Positions 5,665 through 32,472 are shown, counted from the stretch's first letter. The stretch: DNA of 47,614 nt from an uncultured Olsenella sp. (GCA_900314575.1 OMVS01000009.1:1-47614), one strand, 5' to 3'. Numbers and translations: made by a program. The notes: generated by a model not told the origin, from the letters alone.

Positions 5665-5749
5665 TCGTTTCTCGTTTCGTCCGCCGCGTTTCATCGGGTC
5701 CGCGCCTCGCCCCTACCTGAAATCTCTCGCGCCCTCGATAGTGGTCCCA
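5665..5749 (+). promoter_or_regulatory. Repeated promoter/leader element, copy 1
   Basis: About 85 bp shared with 14222-14308 on the opposite strand. Both copies sit upstream of a lipoprotein start codon in the same relative orientation. Common features are GTTTC repeats (GTTTC-N2-GTTTCGT, then GTT(T/C)CA), TACCTGAAA, and CGATAGTGGTCCCA. TACCTG (5714-5719) and GATAGT (5737-5742) are exactly 17 bp apart, as expected of -35 and -10 hexamers. The GTTTC repeats just upstream could bind an activator. The spacing is identical in copy 2. Confidence 0.65.
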
Positions 5750-5816
5750 ACGGAAGGCGATTCCGTCGGGACCCGAGGGGGACCCGAGGCGAGAACCCAG
5801 GTGGAAGGTGGGAACG

Positions 5817-7355
5817 ATGAGGAAGCCGTTGAGCCTTGCTGCGATCTCTTCGGTCATGGTCGGCATGGTGCTGATGACGGGGTGTGCGGGCGGGGTGGGC
5901 TCCGCCCCCAGTCGGATGGTCGCGCGCGAGGACGCGCTCGCCCAGGGCGTCGACGACGAGTCCGAAGACGCCAGGGACCACGACGTCGAAGTGAACCTGA
6001 GTGTCGGCTCCGACGATTCCGGCCGCTCCGGCACCGTCGATTCCGGCCGCTCCGGCACCGCCGACTCCGGCCGCTCCGGCTCCGACGATTCCGGCCGCTC
6101 CGGCACCGCCGATGCGGGCGACCGTGCCGACGAGGGCGGCTCTGCGCGTGCGAGCGCCGGTGCGGACGACGGCCGGGCCTCGGGCCGCGGTGGCGCCACG
6201 GACGCGGATCGCGCCTCCGCCGGCCGCTCGAGCGGGAACGACGCCGGCCCCTCTGGCGCCAATGGGACGCAGGACGGCGCGGGCAAGGACGCCAAGCCCT
6301 CCCAGTCCGGGGACGCCCTCAACTCCGCGCCGGTCAAGGACCCCATGGCGGGCATGTTCCACAACAATGCCTCCTACTTCCACTACTACGACCAGCTTTC
6401 CGCCGAGGGGAAGGCCGTCTACGACGCCGCCTACGACGTGGCCCTGCACCCCACGACGGGGGGCTACGTCCGGACCGTCCAGGTCGACGTGAAGCCCGGC
6501 ACCCCCGAGGCCGACACTCTCGTGCAGTCTGCGACCTGCGCCATCGAGAAGGACCACCCCGAGCTGTTCTACCTCCGCAAGCATCCGATCGGATACCGCT
6601 TCAACCAGAACGTGGGGGGCATGGAGACGAGCGTCTCCCTCCAGCTGACCTCCACCTACGACAACTGCAAGCAGGAGATGACGGAGTTCAACAACGCGGT
6701 CGACTCCTTCCGCGAGGACTGCCAGCTCCTGGGCTCCGACCCCTTCGTCATCCTCGACATCCACGACAAGCTCATCGACCTTGTCTCCTACGACGAGGAC
6801 TACGAGGACGCCCCCGCGGACGACTACACCTACACCGCCTACGGCGCCTTCGTGGCGAACTCGAGGGGCGAGCGGAACACCTGCGTCTGCGCCGGCTACG
6901 CCATGGCGCTCCACTACCTGCTCCAGCAGTCCGGCGAGAAGTCCATCTACGTGGTGGGCTACGCCGGCGGGCCGGACGGGCAGCGGGGTCAGCACGCCTG
7001 GAACGAGGTGAAGATCCGCGACAGCTGGTACGTCATCGACGCCACCTGGGACGACGCCCTCGACCCCGAGACCACGGACATGACGGACCGCCACAACCGG
7101 GTGGCCGCCTCCGACGCCAGGTTCGCCGACCGCCTGAGGCACAGGTACTTCCTGCTCACCACCGAGGAGTTCGAGGACTTCCAGCCCGGAGACGCCTACA
7201 CCTACCACTTCGACGACGGCACCTCCGTGTCCTTTGACTCCGGCTCGAGCCACGTGGTGGACGAGAAGGACGAGCGGACCTACGGCTACGTGGTCCCCGA
7301 CGCCCTGGGGACCAAGTACGACTACGAGGAGCTCGCGAGGGAGCTCGGTCGCTAG
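5817..7355 (+). CDS. Lipoprotein with transglutaminase-like (papain-fold) domain
   Basis: 512 residues. A signal peptide ends in the lipobox LMTGC, so it is probably a lipid-anchored surface protein. Residues about 65-110 hold a tandem DSGRSGT-type repeat, followed by an acidic, Ser/Gly/Asp-rich linker to about 175. The C-terminal half contains a transglutaminase-like core: TCVCAGYAMALHYLL (Cys358), GQHAWNEV (His393), WYVIDATWDD (Asp408), in the canonical Cys-His-Asp order. Such domains are proteases, amidases or cross-linkers of cell-surface proteins. The ATG at 5817 is preferred over the in-frame GTG at 5808 because GGAAGGTGGGA lies just before it. It shares its leader element with the operon on the opposite strand and is convergent with the TIR gene. 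Confidence 0.82.
   Translation: MRKPLSLAAISSVMVGMVLMTGCAGGVGSAPSRMVAREDALAQGVDDESEDARDHDVEVNLSVGSDDSGRSGTVDSGRSGTADSGRSGSDDSGRSGTADAGDRADEGGSARASAGADDGRASGRGGATDADRASAGRSSGNDAGPSGANGTQDGAGKDAKPSQSGDALNSAPVKDPMAGMFHNNASYFHYYDQLSAEGKAVYDAAYDVALHPTTGGYVRTVQVDVKPGTPEADTLVQSATCAIEKDHPELFYLRKHPIGYRFNQNVGGMETSVSLQLTSTYDNCKQEMTEFNNAVDSFREDCQLLGSDPFVILDIHDKLIDLVSYDEDYEDAPADDYTYTAYGAFVANSRGERNTCVCAGYAMALHYLLQQSGEKSIYVVGYAGGPDGQRGQHAWNEVKIRDSWYVIDATWDDALDPETTDMTDRHNRVAASDARFADRLRHRYFLLTTEEFEDFQPGDAYTYHFDDGTSVSFDSGSSHVVDEKDERTYGYVVPDALGTKYDYEELARELGR
6015..6110 (+). repeat. Four tandem 24-bp coding repeats
   Basis: Four consecutive 24-bp units start at 6015, 6039, 6063 and 6087, each beginning GA(T/C)TCCGGCCGCTCCGG and encoding DSGRSG plus two variable residues. 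The copies are nearly identical at the DNA level, so the number may vary between strains. They form the start of the flexible linker of the lipoprotein. Confidence 0.93.
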
Positions 7356-7371
7356 AGAGGCCGGTGGTCGT

Positions 7372-7398
7372 GGGTCGTGCCCGTGCCGGGCACGACCC
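7372..7398. terminator. Hairpin between convergent genes (first of two)
   Basis: GGGTCGTGCCC and GGGCACGACCC form an 11-bp perfect stem with a 5-nt loop (7383-7387), just after the lipoprotein stop. There is no long T-run, only TT. It probably acts as a terminator for the plus-strand gene. Confidence 0.6.
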
Positions 7399-7410
7399 TT
7401 GCGCGTCTGA

Positions 7411-7454
7411 GCCGGAGGGAGGTCCCGGGTCCGTGCCTGGGGCCTCCCTCCGGC
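7411..7454. terminator. Hairpin between convergent genes (second of two)
   Basis: GCCGGAGGGAGG (7411-7422) pairs perfectly with CCTCCCTCCGGC (7443-7454) over 12 bp with a 20-nt loop. It lies 17 nt beyond the end of the minus-strand TIR gene and can serve that strand. Confidence 0.55.
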
Positions 7455-7471
7455 CCGGATGCCGTCTGCGC

Positions 7472-10400
7472 TCACCTGCCGGAGGCCTCCCGTCCCAGGG
7501 CGACGAGCTCCTCCCTGGTGTAGATGGGGTACTCCATCAGGCGGCTGGTGCCGTCCAGCCCGAGGCTCGGAGCGAGGCGCAGCAGGCGGCGTCCCTCGGC
7601 GTCGAAGTCGACCACGTCCTCGACCACCGCGGCCACGCCCATGGTGTCGCGGTCGAGCACCAGCAGGGTACCCGTGCCCACGTCGGTGTTCCGGACGAGC
7701 GCGTAGACGCGGCTCCCGTCCGCGCTCGGCTCCACCCTGATGGTGCGGGGAGGTCAAGCTCGTCCGTGGACATGACCTCGTTGGTCTCGAGGTCGCAGAC
7801 CGCGAGGTCCTTCTCGGTGAGGAGCAGGAGCCTGGCGTCGTCGTCGCAGTAGGCGGCCGCGACTACCGACTTCGCCCTGTGGGGGTACTCGATGCCGCGC
7901 GTCTGCCTCCCGCTCTCAATGTCGTAGGAGACGACGCGGCCGTCGTTGGTGACGACCGAGAACTCCGCCGCCCCGTCGGCGACGGCGATGCCGCGAGTGG
8001 GGCTGACGTCCAGGTCGGTCGGTATGGTGCGGCTCTCCCCCGTGTCGAGGTCGACGGCGAGGAAGGAGCGGATCGTCGGATCGCCCTCGCCCGGGTGGAG
8101 GCCGACGACGAGCCACCCGCTGCGGCCCGCGGCGCACAGGGAGGTCCCGCCGACGCCCCCGGTCGCGGGGCGGCCCTCGAGGTCGGGAATCGTGCGTACG
8201 AGGCTGCCGTCCTCGAACACCTCGACGTCGAAGCTGCTGCCGTCGCCGTGCTCGGTGACGTAGAGGTGGCGGATGCTCCCGTCTCGGCCCTCCACGAAGG
8301 TGGTGTAGGGGGAGCGCTCCTCCTCGGCGTACGTGCCCGTCCCGTCGTCCGCGAAGCGAGCGAAGGAGTACGAGTCGGTGAGGACGAGGGAGCCCGCCCC
8401 GTTCTCCGGGGCAGTGACGAAGCCGGGGCCGACCCTCTTGCTGAGCGTGGCCTGCCGTCCGCCCCCGGCGACCGCCTCGAGGGAGCTCGCGTCGAAGGCG
8501 CCGAGTCTGCCGTCCCCGTCGACCGTGAGGATGAGGCTCCCGTCACGGGACCAGCCGGCAGCCACGGGGGAGGAGTCCGTGGCGAGGACCTCCCGCGCCG
8601 CCCGGCTCCTGGCCACCGTCGTGCGGAACAGCCTCGAGTGGTCCTCGTCGGGCACGAGGCAGACGTAGCTGCCCTCCCCGCTGGGGGCGCTCATGAGGAC
8701 CGGCAGGCACCCGTCCGGGAACGTGCCCGGGGCGCAGCCCGCGAAGGAGGGCTTCTCGCCGAGGAGCGTGTAGAGGGAGTAGACCTCGAGGCGGTCGTTC
8801 ACGAGGTCGCTGCCATCGGCCAGCTCCTCGTCGCTCGGGAGCGGGGCGATGAGGAGGCGACCCGCCTCGGTGAAGGCCATGACGTAGTCGACCAAGTCTC
8901 GCACGCGCGATGCGGCGATCACCTGGTCGCCGCAGGAGTCGGCGTCGTAGAGCCGCATGTCGTCGGAGACGAGCGCCACGGTGTCGCCGACCGCGACGGC
9001 GGACCCCCCGTCGCGGACGGGGATGACGCGCGCGTACATCCCCTCCCCCCAGGGGTCCGTGTCGTCGAGCGAGCGCTCCGCGGAGGTGGAGCCGTCCTGT
9101 CCGAGCGCGGCGAGGGCCAGGGTGGAACCCCGCCGTCCGTGCAGCACGAGGAAGGGCGAGCTGTCGCCCTCTGGTCCCGCGTCGCCGGCGATGGCCAGGT
9201 CGAGAATCTCGTCCTGCCCGGGCAGCCCCGTCGGAAGGGGTCCCGAGCAGGCGCCGTCCGGCGTCCCGGATGCCAGGTACCAGCGCTTGGCGCCCGCGCC
9301 GCCAGCGCCCTCGCCCTCATCCTCGGTCAGGGCCGCCACGAGGAAGCGGCCCTGTCCCTGGTCCCAGGCGACCTGGCAGGAGGCGTGACCCTCGGCGTAG
9401 CGGACGAGGGGGCCCGCGGGGACGCCGGTCTCGAACGTGTGCCGCTCCTGGCCGGTCTCGACGTCGACGAGGTGCAGCACCAGCTGACTCGTCCCCTCGT
9501 CGGCCTCGGCGAAGAGCAGCGAGTCGGCTGCGTACGAGGCGTCGAAGGAGCTTCCCGGCAGGCTCGTCCTGGGGTAGAACCACGCGTTCGACCACACTCG
9601 CTCGCCCGTGCCCATGTCGATACCCTCCGAGAAGTTCCTGTCCCCCGTGCAGCACAGTGCGAGGACGGAGCCGTCTTGGGAGAGGTACAGGTCGAGGTAC
9701 TCGTCGGCGCCCGGGGACAGGCTCGCGAGCTCGTGTGCGAGGTCGTGGCTCTCCCAGAGGACGTCTCCGGTCCCGGCGTCGAGGCACCTCACGACGTCCT
9801 CCGCGTCCACCACGACGAGGCGACTGCCGTCGCTGGTCGGGACCATCAGCACGACGTCGGCGGGGAGGTCGGCGAGGAGCTCGAAGGTCATGTCGTCGCC
9901 GTAGGCGCCGGTCGCCTCCGCGAGGGTCCGTTCGGCCCGCGCGCTCGCCGGGCCGTCCGGATCGAGCTCGAGGGACTCGATCGCGGAGGCGGACGCCTCC
10001 CGGAGGTCCAGCGCGTCGAGCTGGAGCCGGGCGTTGCTCGCGGCGGTGGCGGCGTCGTGCTCCTGGATGCTCCGCCTCTGGCTGGCCATGGTCAGGGCGG
10101 CATGGATGGAGGCGACCGCGACGACGAGGAGGATGGCCGCGGCGACGCCTGAGGCCACGGCGAGTCGACGCGCGCGGTAGCGGCGCTCGCGCTGCCAGAG
10201 GGAGTCGAAGCTGACCTGCGACAGGGTGGCGAGGATCCTGACCGCCTCCCTGCGGAAGCTCGCCGGACGGTACCTCCCGGACCCGTCCGTGAGGTTCGCC
10301 GACAGGGGGCTGTGGGCGCGGGCGCCGCGGCCGTCGTGTCCCTGGTCCGCGAGGAGCGCCTCCGGGATGACCTCCTCGGGGTCGCCGGAGACGAGGACGG

Positions 10401-10728
10401 TCAGGACGTGCTTGAGGTCGCGCGTGGCGAGGAAGTGGTCGATCTCCGCGAGGACCCAGGGTGATTTCCTCGTCTCCTCCGAGCAGACGACGATCAGGTA
10501 TTCGCTCTGGTCCAGCGCCGCCTTGAGGCTGGCGTCGAGGTCGCACGAGAGCGAGAGCTCCGTCTCGTCGCGGAAGACGACGTAGCGTGCGGGCGCGGTA
10601 TCGTCCTCGTCCCGTCCGCCGTCGCCGCGCGGCGGACGGGCATGCTCAATCGCGGACTGGATCCGGGCGGCGACGCGCTTGTCGCGCCTGTTGTGGCGAT
10701 AGCTGATGAACGCCTTGTACCGGTACAC
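7472..10728 (-). CDS. TIR domain - transmembrane - beta-propeller protein, frameshifted near its 3' end
   Basis: About 1,085 residues if the frameshift is repaired. Residues 1-150 are a TIR domain: YRYKAFISYRH, VFRDETELS, LIVVCSEETRKSPWVLAEID with a candidate catalytic Glu95. A helix (about 188-212) follows a run of Arg, predicting a cytosolic TIR and an external C-terminus. The rest repeats a beta-propeller pattern (GSRLVVVDAEDVVRCLD, DGSVLALCC, GSLILTVDGDGRLGAFD). The start is GTG at 10728 after GGGAGGC. Near 7747-7750 (GGGG) one base appears to be missing. The main frame reads into an unrelated tail ending at 7537, while the frame at 7472-7735 carries the natural continuation (VYALVRNTD...LLVLDRDTMG). 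It starts 41 nt after the RyR-like gene, so they are probably one operon. Confidence 0.82.
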
Positions 10729-10769
10729 GCATGCCTCCCTGTGGTGGCGGGGTCGGTCTTCGGGGCCGC

Positions 10770-13721
10770 CTACGGGGCGGGGAACCACGCGAGCCTCAGG
10801 ACGTCTGCGGTCGCGAGAATCATGCCCGCGTCGAGGGACTGGAAGAGGTCGAACTCCTCGCTCCGCCTGCGGTAGCGCGCGAAGCGCTCGTCGGGGCGGG
10901 GGGCCTCCCCGTCGCGTGCGCCCGCGTACTCTCCGGCGTGGTACTCGTAGTCGAGCTGGCGCTGCAGCTCCTCGAGCTCGTCCCAGGAGCAGATGCAGGG
11001 GTGGACCTTCGCGATCTGCACCATGTGGCTCGGTGCCCCGTTCCTGATGCACTGGACCGCCTGGTAGGGGTCGGGCCGGCCGTCGCGGCCGCACATGCCG
11101 ACCCAGCCGCGGCTCTGCATGTGCCGCCGCCAGCGGACGTGCTCAAAGCGTTCGAGCTCCTTCAGGAGGAGGCACCTCTCGACCCGACCCCCGCGGGCGC
11201 TTCTGCGCAGCCGGTCCTCGAAGGCCCGGGCGAGGAGCCGCCTCGCGTCGGCGTCCCACCAGGCGCCTGCGTCCTGCACGTACCACGCCTCCGGGAAGAC
11301 GCCCGCGGCGAAGAGCCGGTAGGGGAGGCTCGCCGCGCACGCCCGAGAGCTGTCCCTCTGGTAGAGGCGGCCGAAGTAGCCGTCCAGCTCCTCGTAGCGC
11401 CCGTCCGCCGCGGGCCCGGCCCCGCAGTACACGAGGTGGACGCACTCGGCCGCCCGCTCGATGGCGTCTCGGCCGAGGTTAGACCAGGCGTAGCGCTCCT
11501 CGGGCGAGCCGAACGTGACGAAGCCGTAGTTGTTGAACCACTGGTTGGCGTGCTCCTCGCCCTTGGGGACCATGAGGTTGGCCCCGAGGGACGCGAGCGA
11601 GGGGTCGGAGCACGGCACCGCGATGACGGGCCTCGTGGCGGCGTAGTCCCGGGTCCTCCCCGCGGCGACCGCGCAGCGGACGCTCGTCTCGCGGACGTGC
11701 GCGGCGAGCGAGAGGTTGCCCAGGTCGGAGCCGGTGTCGACGACGTAGTAGAGGAGGTCGCCCGTAGCCTCGAGCCCCTCGAGCGCCCTCGTGAGGGCGG
11801 GGGAGGAGAGGTCGACGTCGCTGTAGGCGAGCTCGATGGGCGCCAGGCCGTCGTCGGCGAAGGGGGGCTCGCCCCCGGTGGCCTCTCCGTCGTCGCGGAC
11901 CGCCCTCCCCAGTGGCCTGAGCCGCGAGTAGGGCGACATGCCGGGGCACTTCGCGCCCAGGGCGGCATAGAGCCCGGAGGCGTGGGGGGAGAGCACGGAG
12001 ACCTTCGTCGTGACCCCCTCGCCGCAGACGGGGAGGGCGAACGCCTCCCGGACGAGCCAGGACGCGAGCGAGGCGTCCGCGTTCGAGCTGAGGACGACCA
12101 CGTGGAGCGTCTGGTCGTCCGCGCTCTCGCGGATCGCCTTGGAGGTGAGGCGGTAGAAGGGCGGGTGGCGCACGAGGAGCCCGAGGGCCGCCTCGTGCGC
12201 GTCGTCCACCAGGAAGACGCGGACCGTGCGAAGCGCGTCGGGGTTGGAGGATCGGACGAGGTTGAGCGCCGTGTCGATGACGGGGGAGGCCAGCTCCTCG
12301 TCGCAGCGGACGACGACCTCGGTCACGGGGGCGTCGGCCTCCGCGCCCCCTGGCGCCTCGGCGTGCTGCACGAGGTCGAGCACGGCGAGGGCGTCGAGGA
12401 CGTTCCTCTCGAGGTCGTCGTCCAGAAGGACGACGCGCAGCCCCCCGTGCGCCCCCGCGTCGAGGGCGCTGGAGAGCGAGGGGCCGGAGAAGGACGTGAG
12501 GACGCGGAGGTCTGTCGTGGCGGGCATGGTCTGCCGCAGGAGGGAGGTGAGGTCGTTCTCGCAGTTGGCGACGCAGGTCCCGAAGTCGTCCGCGGCCTGG
12601 TTCGCGTCCGCGCGCCCCGGGGCGCGGAGGATGTCCGGGGAGGTCACCTGCCGGCGGGCCTCCCCGCAGCCGTGGAAGTACGCCTCGCGGAAGACGTCGC
12701 CGACGGAGAGGAAGGCGCCCGGGACCGGGCAGGCCGCCACGTCGGTCTCGCAGCAGCACCCGAGCACGTAGAGGGCATCGCCCCTGGTCTTGGCCTGCGC
12801 GAAGTAGCAGGTCTCGAGCAGGTCGCAGGCGCTCCGGTAGGCCTCTGCGTACCTGCCCGCGGAGAGCAGCGACCGCGCCCGCGCGAGCTTGGCCGACGCG
12901 ATCCGGTCGTCTTCGAGGAGGTCCTGCTCGCCGGCTCCCTCCCCGCCGCGCGCGTCCTGCGCCCCCGCGAGGGCCCCGTCGGGGGCGCAGGACGCGTCAG
13001 GCCGGCCTGCTCCGACGCCGGGGAGGATCAGGCTCGCGAGGTGGTCGACGGGCGCCGTGCAGCCGGGGGAGTCGTAGTGCTCCCAGAGGTAGTAGGTGGA
13101 GGCGATGAGCGAGAGCGTCGCGAGGAGGTCGGGCAGGGACCTCCCGTCGAAGGGGTCCCTGCCGACGGGAACCGCGTCGAACGTCCCCTCGTCCGGCCCG
13201 GCCGCGCGCACCCCGAGCGCGGCCGGGAGGTCGAGGCCGGGGAGGCTGAGGTCCTCCCCGTAGCTCCAGAGGTGCGCCCCCGTGCTGCGCCTGGCCTCGC
13301 AGGAGGTGTCGGGGACCGCGCCGCTCCTGTCGTCGGAGAGCAGGGTGCGCAGGTGCCGGCGGAAGACGTCGAGCTCCTCGGGTGCCAGGCCGGAGACGAC
13401 CTCCTCCCAGCGCGCGGCGAAGGCCTGCTGGTAGGGGAAGTCCCCGGGGGCGTACGGGAGGCCGGTTCCGGGGTCGAGCGGGCTCCTCAGCAGGAGCTCC
13501 ATGATCTGGGTGCAGCTCCTGCGCCCGGAGTCGCTGCCGCAGAAGAAGCGGGTCCTCGTCGCCCCGCGCGAGATCCGGGAGAGCACGCCCTTGTCGGCGT
13601 CGGTCAGGGGGCCCGAGGACAGGGCGTCGGAGATCATCCGGACCATGTCGCCCTGGCTCAGGTTGGGTGGGACGAGGTTGTTCCAGTGGATGGCGTTCGT
13701 GGTCTGTGACCTCCGGCTCAT
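10770..13721 (-). CDS. Large protein with RyR-like C-terminal domain and degenerate TrkA-N-like core
   Basis: 983 residues, soluble, no signal peptide. The N-terminal third (to about 300) is unrecognised. The centre shows Rossmann-like strands (LRVVLLDDD near 430, TEVVVRCDEELA, VRVFLVDDAHEAALGLL, TLHVVVLSSNADASLASWL near 538) that resemble the TrkA-N-type core of bacterial RyR-domain proteins but lack an intact GxGxxG. Later come YGFVTFGSPEERYAW and a region ending in SSRACAASLPYRLFAAG. The C-terminus (about 858-925) looks like a RyR (ryanodine receptor) repeat: LERFEHVRWRRHM, Trp864, GW, then HPCICSWDELEE. The ATG at 13721 has AAAAGGAGAAA upstream. It is transcribed with the TIR gene. The binding partner is unknown; RyR domains are suspected to bind nucleotide-type ligands. 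Confidence 0.68.
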   Translation of the reverse strand: MSRRSQTTNAIHWNNLVPPNLSQGDMVRMISDALSSGPLTDADKGVLSRISRGATRTRFFCGSDSGRRSCTQIMELLLRSPLDPGTGLPYAPGDFPYQQAFAARWEEVVSGLAPEELDVFRRHLRTLLSDDRSGAVPDTSCEARRSTGAHLWSYGEDLSLPGLDLPAALGVRAAGPDEGTFDAVPVGRDPFDGRSLPDLLATLSLIASTYYLWEHYDSPGCTAPVDHLASLILPGVGAGRPDASCAPDGALAGAQDARGGEGAGEQDLLEDDRIASAKLARARSLLSAGRYAEAYRSACDLLETCYFAQAKTRGDALYVLGCCCETDVAACPVPGAFLSVGDVFREAYFHGCGEARRQVTSPDILRAPGRADANQAADDFGTCVANCENDLTSLLRQTMPATTDLRVLTSFSGPSLSSALDAGAHGGLRVVLLDDDLERNVLDALAVLDLVQHAEAPGGAEADAPVTEVVVRCDEELASPVIDTALNLVRSSNPDALRTVRVFLVDDAHEAALGLLVRHPPFYRLTSKAIRESADDQTLHVVVLSSNADASLASWLVREAFALPVCGEGVTTKVSVLSPHASGLYAALGAKCPGMSPYSRLRPLGRAVRDDGEATGGEPPFADDGLAPIELAYSDVDLSSPALTRALEGLEATGDLLYYVVDTGSDLGNLSLAAHVRETSVRCAVAAGRTRDYAATRPVIAVPCSDPSLASLGANLMVPKGEEHANQWFNNYGFVTFGSPEERYAWSNLGRDAIERAAECVHLVYCGAGPAADGRYEELDGYFGRLYQRDSSRACAASLPYRLFAAGVFPEAWYVQDAGAWWDADARRLLARAFEDRLRRSARGGRVERCLLLKELERFEHVRWRRHMQSRGWVGMCGRDGRPDPYQAVQCIRNGAPSHMVQIAKVHPCICSWDELEELQRQLDYEYHAGEYAGARDGEAPRPDERFARYRRRSEEFDLFQSLDAGMILATADVLRLAWFPAP

Positions 13722-13798
13722 GTGGGTTTCTCCTTTTATTATATGGGGACCGCGGCGGGACTCCCGTGCCCGTGGGGTGGCCGGTGCGGCCGGCCTCG

Positions 13799-14152
13799 CT
13801 ACTTCCGGTCCATCGAGATGGTCTCGCCGCCACTCTCGAGGACGAGGTGCCCGCTCTCGTCGATGTGATACGTGCACGAGAGGTTATCCAGGCCGGCCCC
13901 GAAGGTGAGCACGCCGTCGCTCGCGATGCCCTGGAACGAGGCGGCGTTGTCCTTGCTGTGGTAGGTCATCGTCGCGTCGCTGCCGTCGATGGTGATGGTG
14001 ACGTAGTCATCCGGGCTGCCGGGGACCTCGGTGACCCAGGTGCCGTCCGAGGAGGAGCAGGCGGAGAGCAGGAGGCTCGCGACGAGCGCCAGCACGATCA
14101 GGACGATGGCGGGACGGGTGCGCGTGACGGTCTTCTCGATGGTCTCTTCCAT
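13799..14152 (-). CDS. Small lipoprotein of unknown function
   Basis: 117 residues. A short charged N-terminus (MEETIEKTVTRTR) precedes a hydrophobic segment and lipobox LLLSAC, so the mature form is a lipid-anchored domain of about 85 residues. That domain is beta-rich (DYVTITIDGSDATMTYH, CTYHIDESGHLVLESGG), like small two-sheet lipoprotein domains. I do not recognise a family. The ATG at 14152 has AAAGGAGAAG before it. It is first in a three-gene minus-strand unit with the RyR-like and TIR genes, led by copy 2 of the repeated promoter element. Confidence 0.75.
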   Translation of the reverse strand: MEETIEKTVTRTRPAIVLIVLALVASLLLSACSSSDGTWVTEVPGSPDDYVTITIDGSDATMTYHSKDNAASFQGIASDGVLTFGAGLDNLSCTYHIDESGHLVLESGGETISMDRK

Positions 14153-14221
14153 GGTCTTCTCCTTTCGTCGGGCGTCTTCCCGGCGCCCTGCCTCCCGGCC
14201 CTGCGCCGGTCGGTCTCTGAC

Positions 14222-14308
14222 TGGGACCACTATCGGGGAGGCGGGGCGTTTCAGGTAGGGCGTCCGGGGCGGCGCCGTGGAACGCCGGCGCACGAAACGT
14301 GAAACGCG
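14222..14308 (-). promoter_or_regulatory. Repeated promoter/leader element, copy 2
   Basis: The reverse-strand counterpart of 5665-5749. GATAGT at 14229-14234 and TACCTG at 14252-14257 are again separated by exactly 17 bp, with GTTTC-N2-GTTTCGT repeats just upstream. It drives the small lipoprotein / RyR-like / TIR unit. The stretch 14153-14582 otherwise holds only the sugar-ABC promoter and operators. Confidence 0.65.
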
Positions 14309-28059: not shown

Positions 28060-28114
28060 CCCGGGCGAGACAGATGACCCGCGCGCGCGGCGCGCGAGAA
28101 AGGCAGATGTGGAC

Positions 28115-30583
28115 ATGCGCGTTTCATACGAGTGGCTCAAGACGATGGTCGACGTGCCCGACGACCCCAAGGACCTGGTCGCGGAGTTCGTGCGCACCGG
28201 CACCGAGGTCGAGTCCGTCGAGAGGGTGGGGGCGGACCTCGCCAACGTGGTCACCGCCCGGGTGGTCTCCAAGGAGCGCCACCCCGACTCCGACCACATG
28301 TGGCTGTGCAAGGTCGACGTGGGCGAGCGCAACCTCGGCGCCGACGGTGCCCCCGAGCCGCTGCAGATCGTCTGCGGCGCCCAGAACTTCGAGGCCGGCG
28401 ACCACATCGTCACCGCGCTCGTGGGGGCGGTGCTGCCCGGCGGCGTGAAGATCAAGAAGTCGAAGCTGCGCGGCGTCGAGTCGTTCGGCATGAACTGCTC
28501 GGAGCGCGAGCTCGGCATGGGCAACGACCACGACGGCATCATCATCCTGCCCAAGGACGCCCCGGTGGGCATGGACTACACGGACTACCTCGGCAGCTCC
28601 GACACCGTGATCGACTGCGAGATCACCCCCAACCGCCCGGACTGCCTGTCCATGGTGGGCATGGCCACCGAGGTCGCGGCCGTCCTCGACGAGGACGCCC
28701 ACGTCGAGCTGCCGCGGATCGCCCACGAGGACCCCTCCGTGCGCACGGCGGACCTCGTCGACGTCACCATCGACGACGCCTCGCTCTGCCAGCGCTACAC
28801 GGCGCGCGTCGTGCGCGGTGTGAAGATTGGCCCCAGCCCCGAGTGGCTCGCGCGCCGCGTCATCGCCGCGGGCAGCCGCCCCATCAACAACGTCGTCGAC
28901 GTGACCAACTACGTGATGTACCTCACCGGCCAGCCTCTGCACGCCTTCGACCTGCGCAAGCTCTCCGAGCGCGACGGGAGGCGCCACGTTGTGGTGAGGG
29001 CCGCGCACGAGGGCGAGCACGTGACCACGCTGGACGGCAAGGACCGCGCGCTCACTCCCGACATGGTCGTCATCACCGACGACGGCAGGGAGCCCGTGGC
29101 CCTGGCGGGCGTGATGGGCGGCCTCGACTCCGAGATCGACGAAGGCACCGTCGACGTCCTCCTCGAGAGCGCCGTCTTCGAGCCGGGCCACATCAGCCGC
29201 ACGAGCCGCAACCTCGACCTCATGAGCGAGGCCTCGATCCGCTACGAGCGCCAGGTCGACGCCGCCGGCTGCGCCACCGTCTCCGACGTGGCGGCCGCCC
29301 TCTTCGAGCAGTGCTGCGGCGCCACAGTGTGCGAGGGCATGGTCGACGAGTACCCCGTGCCGCCCGTGCCGGCCAGGGTCTCCCTGCGCCCCGACCGCGT
29401 GCGCGCCCTCTCGGGCGCCCCGATCGAGACCTCGTTCATGGTCGGGCGCCTGCGCCGCCTCGGCTGCGAGGTCGCGGAGGGCGCGGACGAGCACGCCACC
29501 CTCGAGGTCGTGGCCCCCACCTCCCGTCCCGACCTCACGCGCGAGTGCGACCTCGTCGAGGAGGTCCTGCGCCTGTGGGGCGAGGGCGACGTGGAGCCGA
29601 CGCTGCCCGCGGCGCGCAACCACGCCGGCGGCCTCACCGTCGAGCAGCAGCGCCTGCGCCTGGTCGGTCGCACCCTGCGCGCCGCCGGCCTCTCCGAGAC
29701 GATGACCTACAACTTCGCCGACCCGCGCGACCTCGAGCGCCTCGGCGTGCCGGACGAGGGCAGGGGCGTCCCCGTCAAGATCATGCACCCGCTCGTGGCC
29801 GACCAGGGCGAGATGCGCCGCGACCTTCTCCCCGGCCTCTTGCGTTCGGTCGCCTACAACCTCGACCACGGCGTGGGGAACGTCCACCTCTACGAGGTCG
29901 GCCGCCTCTTCTTCGGCCACGAGCACAGGAGCCAGCCGGACGAGCCCACCTACGTGGCGGGCGTCATGTGCGGCGCCTGGGACGACGACCAGTGGAACCG
30001 CAAGTTCGCGAGGCTCGACTTCTTCGACGCGAAGGGCGTCGTGGAGACCCTGCTCGAGGCCCTGCGCCTGACAAAGGTCCGCTTCCGCGTGGCCGACGCC
30101 AAGGCCTACCCGTGGCTGCAGCCCGGCCAGGCGGCCGAGGTCCTGGCCGACGGCGCCCTCCTGGGCTGGGTCGGCAACGTCCACCCCACGTCCCTCAAGG
30201 CCTTCGACATCGACGAGCCCGTCGTCGCCTTCGAGCTCTCCGTCGACGCGCTGCTGCGCAAGGCCAGGCGCGAGCTGCCCTACCAGGACGTGCCGACGCT
30301 GCCGGGCGTCTCGGTAGACCTGGCGCTCGTCGTGGACGAGTCGATGACGGCCGAGCAGGTCATGCAGCGCATCAGGAGCGCCGGCGGCAAGCTGCTCTCG
30401 TCGGTCCGCCTCTTCGACGTCTACCGCGACCCGGCGCGCGTGGGCGAGGGCAAGAAGTCGATGGCCTTCTCGCTCGAGTACCGCGCGGCAGACCACACCC
30501 TCACCTCCGAGGAGGTCGAGAAGGCCCACGACAAGCTGGTGCAGAAGGTCATGAAGTCCACCGGCGGCGAGGTCCGCGGCTAG
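28115..30583 (+). CDS. pheT: Phenylalanine-tRNA ligase beta subunit
   Basis: 822 residues, the partner of PheS with editing activity. Seen: MRVSYEWLKTMVDVP at the start, the tRNA-binding OB-fold (about 40-155, VSKERHPDSDHMWLCKVD, IVCGAQNFEAGD, KIKKSKLRGVESFGM), the B3/B4 editing region (DCEITPNRPDCLSM, NNVVDVTNYVMY, QPLHAFD), B5 domains, and a C-terminal ferredoxin-like anticodon domain (YQDVPTLPGVSVDLALVVDE, EYRAADHTLTSEEVEKAHDKL). ATG 28115 is preferred for its conserved MRVS start. GTG at 28109 is in frame and nearer to GAAAGG, so it remains possible. Confidence 0.97.
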   Translation: MRVSYEWLKTMVDVPDDPKDLVAEFVRTGTEVESVERVGADLANVVTARVVSKERHPDSDHMWLCKVDVGERNLGADGAPEPLQIVCGAQNFEAGDHIVTALVGAVLPGGVKIKKSKLRGVESFGMNCSERELGMGNDHDGIIILPKDAPVGMDYTDYLGSSDTVIDCEITPNRPDCLSMVGMATEVAAVLDEDAHVELPRIAHEDPSVRTADLVDVTIDDASLCQRYTARVVRGVKIGPSPEWLARRVIAAGSRPINNVVDVTNYVMYLTGQPLHAFDLRKLSERDGRRHVVVRAAHEGEHVTTLDGKDRALTPDMVVITDDGREPVALAGVMGGLDSEIDEGTVDVLLESAVFEPGHISRTSRNLDLMSEASIRYERQVDAAGCATVSDVAAALFEQCCGATVCEGMVDEYPVPPVPARVSLRPDRVRALSGAPIETSFMVGRLRRLGCEVAEGADEHATLEVVAPTSRPDLTRECDLVEEVLRLWGEGDVEPTLPAARNHAGGLTVEQQRLRLVGRTLRAAGLSETMTYNFADPRDLERLGVPDEGRGVPVKIMHPLVADQGEMRRDLLPGLLRSVAYNLDHGVGNVHLYEVGRLFFGHEHRSQPDEPTYVAGVMCGAWDDDQWNRKFARLDFFDAKGVVETLLEALRLTKVRFRVADAKAYPWLQPGQAAEVLADGALLGWVGNVHPTSLKAFDIDEPVVAFELSVDALLRKARRELPYQDVPTLPGVSVDLALVVDESMTAEQVMQRIRSAGGKLLSSVRLFDVYRDPARVGEGKKSMAFSLEYRAADHTLTSEEVEKAHDKLVQKVMKSTGGEVRG

Positions 30584-30614
30584 CGCCTCCGACGGGGCCG
30601 GACGGAGCGCATGC

Positions 30615-30650
30615 GAGGGGAGGGGTCGCCTGCGGGCGGCTCCTCCCCTC
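30615..30650 (+). terminator. Hairpin after pheT
   Basis: GAGGGGAGG (30615-30623) pairs with CCTCCCCTC (30642-30650), with further GC pairing inside the loop. No T-run follows. It probably ends the pheST transcript. Confidence 0.55.
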
Positions 30651-30668
30651 ATGGTCGGCCGGCCCGAG

Positions 30669-30707
30669 TTGTTCTCACAAGCGAACGATTTGTTCGACTG
30701 ATATGAT
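30669..30707 (+). promoter_or_regulatory. Operator and extended -10 promoter of the phospholipase/GntR operon
   Basis: TTGTTCTCACAA (30669-30680) fits the TTGT-N4-ACAA class. A second inverted repeat CGAAC-N5-GTTCG lies at 30682-30696. TG-A-TATGAT (30699-30707) is a good extended -10. The overlap of repeats and promoter suggests repression, probably by the GntR protein encoded in the same operon. Confidence 0.55.
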
Positions 30708-30775
30708 TCTGGGACGTAGTGACGTCAGGGACGATGCCGAGCGGGTCGCGTCCTCAAATCCGGAGGGAGCGTGCC

Positions 30776-31732
30776 GTGCCGAGCTGGAACATCCACACAG
30801 CCCACGTCGAGCGGCTCCTGGACGAGCACGGCGCCGAGGCCCTCGGGGTCCGCGACCCCAACGCCTTCCTCTTCGGCAACCTCCTGCCCGACGTCTACGT
30901 GGGCTACATGGTCCCCGACGTCAGCCACAAGATCCGCTACCGCACGACCCACTTCGCCGACCCCGCCTTCATCCCCACGCCTCACTTCAGCTACTTCGCG
31001 GGGATCTACGTGGATGGCAGGGACGCCTCGGACGTCACGCTCGGCGCCTGGGCCCACCTCGTGGCGGACCACATCTACAACCGGGAGACGCGCAGGTTCA
31101 TCGACGCGATCGGCGTGAGGCCCGGAAACGAGACGCGCGTCCGTAAGCAGGGGGACTTCGACCTGTTCGGCCGCACGCTCGAGATCTCGAGCGTGCCCGA
31201 GGTGGACTCGGGGCTGGTCGACCAGGCGGCGGGGTTCCCGCAGTACGCGGTCGCCGCCGCAGACGCGCGGGCCGCCGCGCGGGTCGCCTGCGGGATCGTG
31301 CGCGCCAACGACGAGCGCCACGTCGCGGGCACGCCCACCTACAGCCTCCTCACGCCCGAGTTCTTCTCGCGCACCTTCGACCTGGTGGACGAGGCCATCG
31401 CGGCCGGGCTGATCGCGCACGCGCGCTCGGGCTCCACGGCGCCCGGCATGAGACGGGCGATTCCGGGCTACCGCGCGCTCGACGCGCAGGAGGCCCTCAT
31501 CGCCGTGGCGGACGCCGAGCGCAGGGGCGCCGAGTCCGACGCCAGGCTGCAGGCGCGCGGCCTCGAGGTGCCCTTCGCGGACGAGGTCGTGCCCACGCCC
31601 GTGCTGGTGCCCGCCTCGCCCGGGGCCGTCTCCGCCCCGTCCGCCGCCCACGCGCCCGAGGCCGCGCCTCGCGGCGCCGCACAAGCCCTGTCCGCTCCAC
31701 CGCGCCACGACGGCGCCCAGAAGGAACGATGA
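30776..31732 (+). CDS. Zinc-dependent phospholipase C-like protein
   Basis: 318 residues. Starts MPSWNIHTAHVERLL, then FLFGNLLPDVYVGYM, TTHFADPAF and GAWAHLVADHIYN. The His/Asp pattern resembles the zinc-dependent phospholipase C / S1-P1-like family, in which similar residues bind zinc. There is no signal peptide, so an intracellular phosphoesterase or hydrolase is more likely than a secreted toxin. The last about 50 residues are Ala/Pro-rich and probably disordered. The GTG at 30776 has GGAGGGA seven bases upstream. Its last codons overlap the ATG of a GntR regulator, so the pair is translationally coupled. Confidence 0.7.
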   Translation: MPSWNIHTAHVERLLDEHGAEALGVRDPNAFLFGNLLPDVYVGYMVPDVSHKIRYRTTHFADPAFIPTPHFSYFAGIYVDGRDASDVTLGAWAHLVADHIYNRETRRFIDAIGVRPGNETRVRKQGDFDLFGRTLEISSVPEVDSGLVDQAAGFPQYAVAAADARAAARVACGIVRANDERHVAGTPTYSLLTPEFFSRTFDLVDEAIAAGLIAHARSGSTAPGMRRAIPGYRALDAQEALIAVADAERRGAESDARLQARGLEVPFADEVVPTPVLVPASPGAVSAPSAAHAPEAAPRGAAQALSAPPRHDGAQKER

Positions 31733-32472
31733 TGCCCAAGCTCGAGAAGAGAGCCGGGTCCCTGCTCTACGTGCAGGTCTCCGACTACGTCCGCGAGAAG
31801 ATCTACTCCAAGGAGTGGGGGGTCGACGCGCCCATCCCCTCCGAGCACGAGCTCATGAGCATGCTGGGGCTCTCGCGCGGCACGGTGCAGAAGGGCATCC
31901 GCAAGCTGGTCGACGAGGGGCTCCTCGTGCAGCAGCGCGGCCGCGGCACCTTCGTCACGCAGCCGCTGATCGCGCGGCCCAGCTCCAACCGGCTGCTCTC
32001 CTTCGCCGAGTCCATGAGCGCCCAGGGCATAGAGTTCGAGACTCGCGTCGTGGAGGAGCGCGTGGAGCGGGCCAACCTCGCCTGCGCGGAGAACCTGGGG
32101 ATCGAGGAGGGGGAGGACTACCTCTACCTCGCGCGCGTCCGCTACGCCTACCGTCACCCGGTGATGTTCATCGAGAGCCACCTCAACCTGCGCGCCTGCC
32201 CCGGCATCGAGGACGCGGACTTCTCGCGCGAGGGGCTGTTCGCGGCGGCGGAGCGCACGAGCGGGCAGGCCATCGGCAGGAGCGAGATGGTCTACAGCGC
32301 CCGCACGGCGGGCAAGCGCCGCGGCCAGTGGCTCGAGTGCGACGAGGGGGCGCCGGTGCTCGACCTCGACCAGCTCGTGCGCCTCGCCGACGGCACGCCC
32401 TTCGAGTGGGGCAGCGTCTGGCTGCCGGCCAACCGCTGCGTCATCTCCAACGAGACCGTGCGCGAGGGGTAG
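31729..32472 (+). CDS. GntR/HutC-family regulator with UTRA domain
   Basis: 247 residues. Winged helix about 8-78 (LYVQVSDYVREKIYSKEW, LGLSRGTVQKGIRKLVDEGLL, RGRGTFVTQPL), then a UTRA effector domain (YLYLARVRYAYRHPVMFIESHLNL, LDLDQLVRLADGTPFEWGSVWLP). The ATG at 31729 overlaps the previous stop (ATGA); ATG 31732 is an equally possible start. It probably controls its own operon through the palindromes at 30669-30696. The effector is unknown. Confidence 0.88.
   Translation: MMPKLEKRAGSLLYVQVSDYVREKIYSKEWGVDAPIPSEHELMSMLGLSRGTVQKGIRKLVDEGLLVQQRGRGTFVTQPLIARPSSNRLLSFAESMSAQGIEFETRVVEERVERANLACAENLGIEEGEDYLYLARVRYAYRHPVMFIESHLNLRACPGIEDADFSREGLFAAAERTSGQAIGRSEMVYSARTAGKRRGQWLECDEGAPVLDLDQLVRLADGTPFEWGSVWLPANRCVISNETVREG

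Follow-up and report, generated by a model that had tools for sequence, protein, structure and literature searches.

A recurring bacterial gene pair of a membrane TIR protein and an RyR-like partner, a candidate route of nucleotide signalling in an uncultured Olsenella

Does a small gene cluster in a gut bacterium, an uncultured Olsenella sp., encode a pathway in which a TIR protein at the cell surface signals to a cytosolic protein related to the ligand domain of ryanodine receptors (RyR), and which of its genes would belong to such a pathway? TIR enzymes, with the nucleotides they produce, hold a central place in the immunity of bacteria, plants and animals. The cluster lies at positions 5665–14308 of a stretch of DNA of 47,614 nucleotides (GCA_900314575.1 OMVS01000009.1:1-47614; hereafter the window), which belongs to a 2.1-Mb genome assembly in 144 contigs. 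The original prediction, made from the sequence of the window, described four clustered genes, and all four were recovered as real ORFs with corrected start positions: a transglutaminase-like lipoprotein on the plus strand, and a small lipoprotein, an RyR-like protein and a TIR protein, in this order, on the minus strand. Since the gaps in the minus-strand series are only 77 nt (lipoprotein stop to RyR start) and 41 nt (RyR stop to TIR start), these three genes probably form one operon. The prediction that both transcription units start with the same leader also held. The leader upstream of the transglutaminase lipoprotein (5666–5749, plus strand) is homologous to 14306–14222, that is, to a second copy (14222–14306, minus strand) upstream of the operon, and is a candidate promoter or regulator site. 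The two leaders share 39 nt at 82% identity, their wider local alignment scores 91 against a maximum of 40 for shuffled sequences, and the core, CCCTACCTGAAA-N14-GATAGTGGTCCCA, which stands at the start of both units, has just two copies in the 2.1-Mb genome, both at these units, even when up to three mismatches are allowed. A terminator-like inverted repeat (7403–7462; arms 7403–7429 and 7436–7462, 81% complementary) separates the convergent units.

The TIR gene occupies 7473–10728 on the minus strand, with a GTG start at 10728; frame 0 ends at 7537 and the conserved C-terminal frame at 7473. Its product begins with a TIR domain detected by Pfam (aa 1–125; 10354–10728, minus strand), which is predicted to be cytosolic and has a putative catalytic Glu95 in SPWVLAE, followed by a single TM helix (aa 190–208; 10105–10161, minus strand; hydropathy 2.54) with an Arg-rich stretch just before it. 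The Pfam matches (TIR_2, 3.4e-9; ThsB_TIR, 2.8e-7; PQQ_2, 1.6e-7, in the C-terminal propeller-like part) and the one strong TM helix agree with the TIR-TM-propeller architecture originally proposed, and the PADLOC ThsB models reach only 0.0085 against this protein. Because of the positive-inside rule, an N-in/C-out topology is predicted, with the TIR domain inside and the propeller outside. The closest relative of the protein, in genome G052, is 46% identical over 1003 aa. The residues W91 and E95 of the NADase motif (W-x3-E) are invariant in all TIR relatives aligned (sets A3 and A6), and the TIR profile matches TIR structures in the PDB, including that of the NADase AbTIR; with this profile and with the catalytic Glu and its preceding Trp, the window protein has the sequence characteristics of a TIR NADase.

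The RyR-like gene (10770–13721, minus strand) encodes a protein of 983 aa (P0002) of the order RCK-RCK-RyR-like, which is soluble and has no TM helix. The tandem RCK region, of the TrkA/GsuK/CASTOR gating-ring type (aa 343–750; 11472–12695, minus strand), was located by VIA-align with a structure model of moderate confidence (mean pLDDT 53), which gave Z 13 to GsuK, TrkA and MtDMI1 and Z 12 to LjCASTOR. For the relative at locus L077, modelled with a mean pLDDT of 83, the RCK score rises to Z 14.5 against GsuK and TrkA, with CASTOR and DMI1 slightly lower. The VIA-align lists are dominated by the RCK region and are thus uninformative on RyR or TM parts, so that missing RyR structures in them have no meaning; the model of the RyR region itself is of low confidence. 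The RyR-like domain (aa 800–983; 10773–11324, minus strand) contains the motifs EHVRW (860–864) and KVHP (905–908), which match the ligand-binding H/W/H of RyDEP, a phage protein whose ligand residues are His75, Trp78, His100 and Asp117 (PMC13232231). The HxxW and the second His are kept in the window family; several Asp residues follow, as candidates for the counterpart of the RyDEP Asp.

Searched alone, P0002 gave no usable sequence match in Pfam, NCBIfam, PADLOC or the PDB, and no relatives when used as the sole query against genome contigs. The canonical RyR family PF02026 had no match in it at E ≤ 1 and none elsewhere in its genome; the protein is called RyR-like, or divergent, because it falls below the PF02026 gathering score. 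A whole-genome search identified distant relatives of about 650–980 aa, with hydrophobic helices at the N-terminus and, after a middle region, a conserved C-terminal part that carries EHxRW and KxHP-type motifs; those named are from metagenome assemblies of Atopobiaceae and other Coriobacteriia, several of them from ruminant gut. A broad alignment proved too heterogeneous to serve as the seed of a scan. The profile of the C-terminal family matches RyR chains in the PDB at 4e-11 (RyR1 chimera) to about 2e-4 (bacterial 3nrt group), and hhalign aligns the family to PF02026 at 1.5e-5, or at 1.8e-4 with P0002 excluded, the latter far above the scores of 20 column-shuffled controls. These profile matches, the tandem RCK fold and the missing TM helix bear out the earlier description of an RyR-like/TrkA-like cytosolic partner. 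Most RCK-RyR relatives, in Coriobacteriia, combine N-terminal TM helices with the gating-ring fold, and two relatives from Bacillota are soluble like the window protein. A canonical K+ selectivity filter (TVGYG-like) was not found between the TM helices of the TM relatives, for which reason 'channel' is a reading suggested by their architecture. No obvious channel partner lies near the window RyR gene.

Several searches place RyR genes beside TIR genes. In a class-wide sample of 398 Coriobacteriia genomes, the RCK-RyR family is present in 43 and TIR-TM genes in 42, with both in 19 (4.5 expected), and in 9 of these 19 no more than 1 kb separates the two genes (0.18 expected), which are convergent or on the same strand. 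A search for PF02026 in 358 Coriobacteriia genomes returned 41 matches, 19 of which have a TIR gene of the window family within 8 kb (0.19 expected). Among 19 Bacillota genomes with RyR, 13 also have TIR (2.2 expected). The Fisher values for co-occurrence (6e-10 for the class-wide sample, 1e-15 for PF02026 in Coriobacteriia and 2e-9 for Bacillota) treat genomes as independent and so overstate the independent evidence; a stronger argument than the counts is that the pair is spread over several families and two phyla. Chance co-location was considered and is ruled out by the 9 of 19 and 19 of 41 neighbouring pairs. Because a TIR-TM-propeller protein and an RyR-type partner recur as a gene pair, the functional link predicted from these genomes is far beyond chance. 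Many members of the RyR family, for example in genera g9 and g16, are found with no TIR neighbour.

The form of the pair varies. In G052, the gene of the nearest TIR relative overlaps a 107-aa canonical RyR gene (PF02026, 5.9e-35); compared with the window, the TIR is kept while the form of the partner changes, and the constant part is the RyR domain. TIR and RyR genes are also near neighbours at five Bacillota loci: in operon-like order at L123 and L124, divergent with a canonical RyR gene at L162, and divergent at L087 and L088, where STAS- and HATPase-like small ORFs were read by eye between them and, at L087, a subtilase gene lies near the pair. The STAS- and HATPase-like ORFs, with the L087 subtilase, resemble a partner-switching stress module. 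On contig C172 of G052 (L018/L156), a TIR-RyR pair and a TM-RCK-RyR gene are separated by the gene of a Tubulin_2 protein, a weak match to VWA and other large uncharacterised genes. At three loci of g35 genomes (L014, L049, L050) the pair adjoins a GntR gene and a gene marked by the peptide MPSWNIHTAH, near pheT where the contig covers it; in the window these two genes are adjacent with no insert (28109–32472), and the pair therefore sits at different sites in related genomes. Other neighbours were observed as well. Some TIR or RyR genes are clustered with protein-kinase-like, PP2C-like or FHA genes (L153, L137, L159), which suggests control by phosphorylation, and at L145 (5525–10058; G415) an Ion_trans channel gene (PF00520, 2e-48) lies 79 nt downstream of a TIR-TM-propeller gene, which likewise hints at ion flux as the output. 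The RCK-RyR genes at L053 and L064 adjoin weak matches to DUF4062, one with TPRs and one with a NUDIX domain, and these neighbours are possible alternative makers of an NAD-derived signal. For ten neighbours of RyR genes elsewhere, PADLOC gave TIR models, a PDC-S31 candidate and a protein resembling type IV restriction; such a small number of matches does not allow the RyR module to be called defence-linked.

The isomers 2′cADPR and 3′cADPR are products of TIR enzymes. In a 2026 preprint, Lopez Rivera, Kranzusch and colleagues reported that RyR-domain proteins of phages bind or cleave 2′cADPR/3′cADPR (PMC13232231), which gives substance to the earlier suggestion that RyR domains bind nucleotide-type ligands. 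Taken with the architecture of the two proteins and the recurrence of the pair, this makes it reasonably probable that the core of the locus is a two-component signalling pair, in which the TIR protein makes a cADPR-type signal and the RyR protein reads it. The TIR protein would span the membrane, with the propeller exposed outside and the TIR domain in the cytosol, and engagement of the propeller, or clustering, would trigger the TIR domain to cut and cyclise NAD+ to a messenger of the ADP-ribose type, for instance an isomer of cADPR. This messenger would bind the RyR-like domain of the partner, and the resulting change would be passed on to the gating ring of tandem RCK domains. Where this ring is joined to N-terminal TM helices, as in most relatives, the protein would work at the membrane as a channel-like effector gated by the ligand; the soluble ring of the window would act on a separate partner, as TrkA and KtrA do. 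The role of such a pair might lie in defence or in the response to stress at the surface. A fuller version, which is on balance somewhat doubtful, is a complete bacterial TIR-to-RyR nucleotide pathway in which a surface receptor produces a cADPR isomer and this opens a membrane channel with an RyR domain and RCK gating. Such a pathway would parallel, in prokaryotes, the action of cADPR through ryanodine receptors, and phages could have acquired their RyDEP anti-defence proteins from it.

The main rival to a TIR signal read by an RyR sensor reverses the part of the second protein: the RyR partner would be a brake, degrading or sequestering the TIR product as phage RyDEP does and thereby restraining a self-toxic TIR. 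RyDEP cleaves 2′/3′cADPR and its sponge homologues sequester them (PMC13232231), and the canonical small RyR genes beside TIRs conserve the His/Trp residues and a C-terminal Asp and have no visible effector part. Most RCK-RyR partners, however, carry a gating ring and TM helices, for which a simple hydrolase or sponge would have no need, and a brake is an unlikely reading.

A separate doubt concerns the window copy, which could be decaying and without function. A one-base frameshift at 7735–7750 (minus strand), either a mutation or an assembly error, which the original prediction did not include in its account, puts the last 86 or so codons of the TIR gene into another frame (ending at 7473), the product of which shares 53% identity with the C-terminal end of an intact relative. 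In the alignment with the G052 relative, the main frame extends to its residue 1002 and the tail from the alternative frame covers residues 1016–1095, and intact TIR relatives exist. Programmed frameshifting was also considered; no slippery site is visible by eye at the junction, and a mutation or an assembly error is simpler. Because the TIR gene is frameshifted and the RyR protein has no TM helices, the window copy may be atypical, and both features speak for decay. Yet both TIR halves encode conserved protein sequence, no break interrupts the 983 aa of the RyR ORF, the frameshift may be an error of an assembly in 144 contigs, and Bacillota also have soluble RCK-RyR forms; loss of function is thus rather unlikely.

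In a further reading the TIR domain would be a non-enzymatic scaffold, and the RyR/RCK protein would, like TrkA and GsuK, sense ordinary NAD(H)/ADP-ribose or adenine nucleotides, the pair being a regulator of metabolism or envelope stress. The closest RCK folds are indeed those of TrkA and GsuK, whose structures include complexes with ATP-gamma-S, ADP and NAD; the two divergent Bacillota pairs have their STAS/HATPase-like ORFs and, in one case, the subtilase gene near; and a reading of the window's gene list brought up no sign of a prophage or defence island. However, the W-x3-E NADase motif is kept in every TIR member aligned, and RyR genes also adjoin genes like DUF4062, a TIR-like NADase family (PMC13174449), which makes a regulator of this kind quite improbable.

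The two lipoproteins stand outside the conserved core. The transglutaminase-like lipoprotein (P0004; 512 aa; 5817–7355, plus strand) has the lipobox LMTGC, a Ser/Gly/Asp-rich linker and the Cys/His/Asp of the transglutaminase core, with matches to Pfam Transglut_core (1.1e-6) and to the NCBIfam MAG6410 transglutaminase-related lipoprotein (2.5e-15, below the family cut-off). The small lipoprotein (117 aa; 13799–14152, minus strand; lipobox LLSAC) is the product of the first gene of the operon. Neither was found at the other TIR/RyR loci examined, except for a weakly similar transglutaminase near the L058 RyR gene, and relatives of the transglutaminase lipoprotein elsewhere are unlinked to TIR/RyR. 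In related genomes, then, the TIR-RyR core is adjacent as expected and the lipoproteins are not its neighbours, so that the four-gene system originally proposed does not stand as such; through the shared leader, the lipoproteins may be co-regulated accessories in the window. That they are obligate partners in a four-gene surface system is very improbable: the leader unique to the two units favours it, and their distribution at other loci speaks against it.

To our knowledge, the bacterial sensors of TIR products are few, namely SLOG, macro and similar domains, and the recurrent TIR-RyR pair provides a specific candidate sensor and suggests a channel-type output. Since many bacteria that are only distantly related share the pairing, it is probably an unrecognised route of nucleotide signalling; no description of bacterial TIR-RyR operons was found in the literature searched, which is not proof of their absence. 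The pair also places in a bacterial setting the RyR domains with which phages counter Thoeris, and the long-debated link between cADPR and RyR becomes testable in simple bacteria.

On genomic grounds the case for the pair is strong, and with its proposed mechanism it would be a variant of the plan of TIR signal and sensor, similar to that of Thoeris. As in Thoeris (ThsB TIR and ThsA effector), a TIR enzyme is paired with a putative nucleotide-sensing effector, and Thoeris effectors include membrane forms such as the TM-macro ThsA (PMC11204291); in contrast, the TIR protein of the window spans the membrane itself and has a propeller predicted to lie outside, and RCK-RyR takes the place of SIR2-SLOG or macro as the sensor. 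No SIR2, SLOG or TM-macro (ThsA) domain was found in the four window proteins with Pfam, NCBIfam or PADLOC, and assignment to a known Thoeris type was rejected, as a ThsB-type TIR is present but a ThsA-type effector is missing. The Swarozyc/DUF4062 TIR-like NADases (PMC13174449) likewise have NAD-cleaving TIR-like domains, and two RCK-RyR genes adjoin DUF4062-like genes, whereas the window has a classical TIR. The tandem RCK gating-ring fold is shared with RCK-gated channels and transport regulators (GsuK, TrkA/KtrA, CASTOR/DMI1, Slo1), from which the window family differs in its extra C-terminal RyR-like domain, its TM relatives in having no canonical K+ filter and the window protein in having no TM part. 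RyDEP and the phage R12/RyR-domain proteins (PMC13232231) have an RyR-type domain with the same H/W/H ligand residues, and RyDEP acts on TIR-made cADPR isomers; unlike the anti-defence protein RyDEP, the window family comes from bacteria, forms a gene pair with a TIR and mostly has a gating ring and TM helices attached to its RyR-type domain. With animal ryanodine receptors, the family shares the R12-type ligand domain and profile similarity to RyR chains, whereas the channel and the overall architecture are wholly different.
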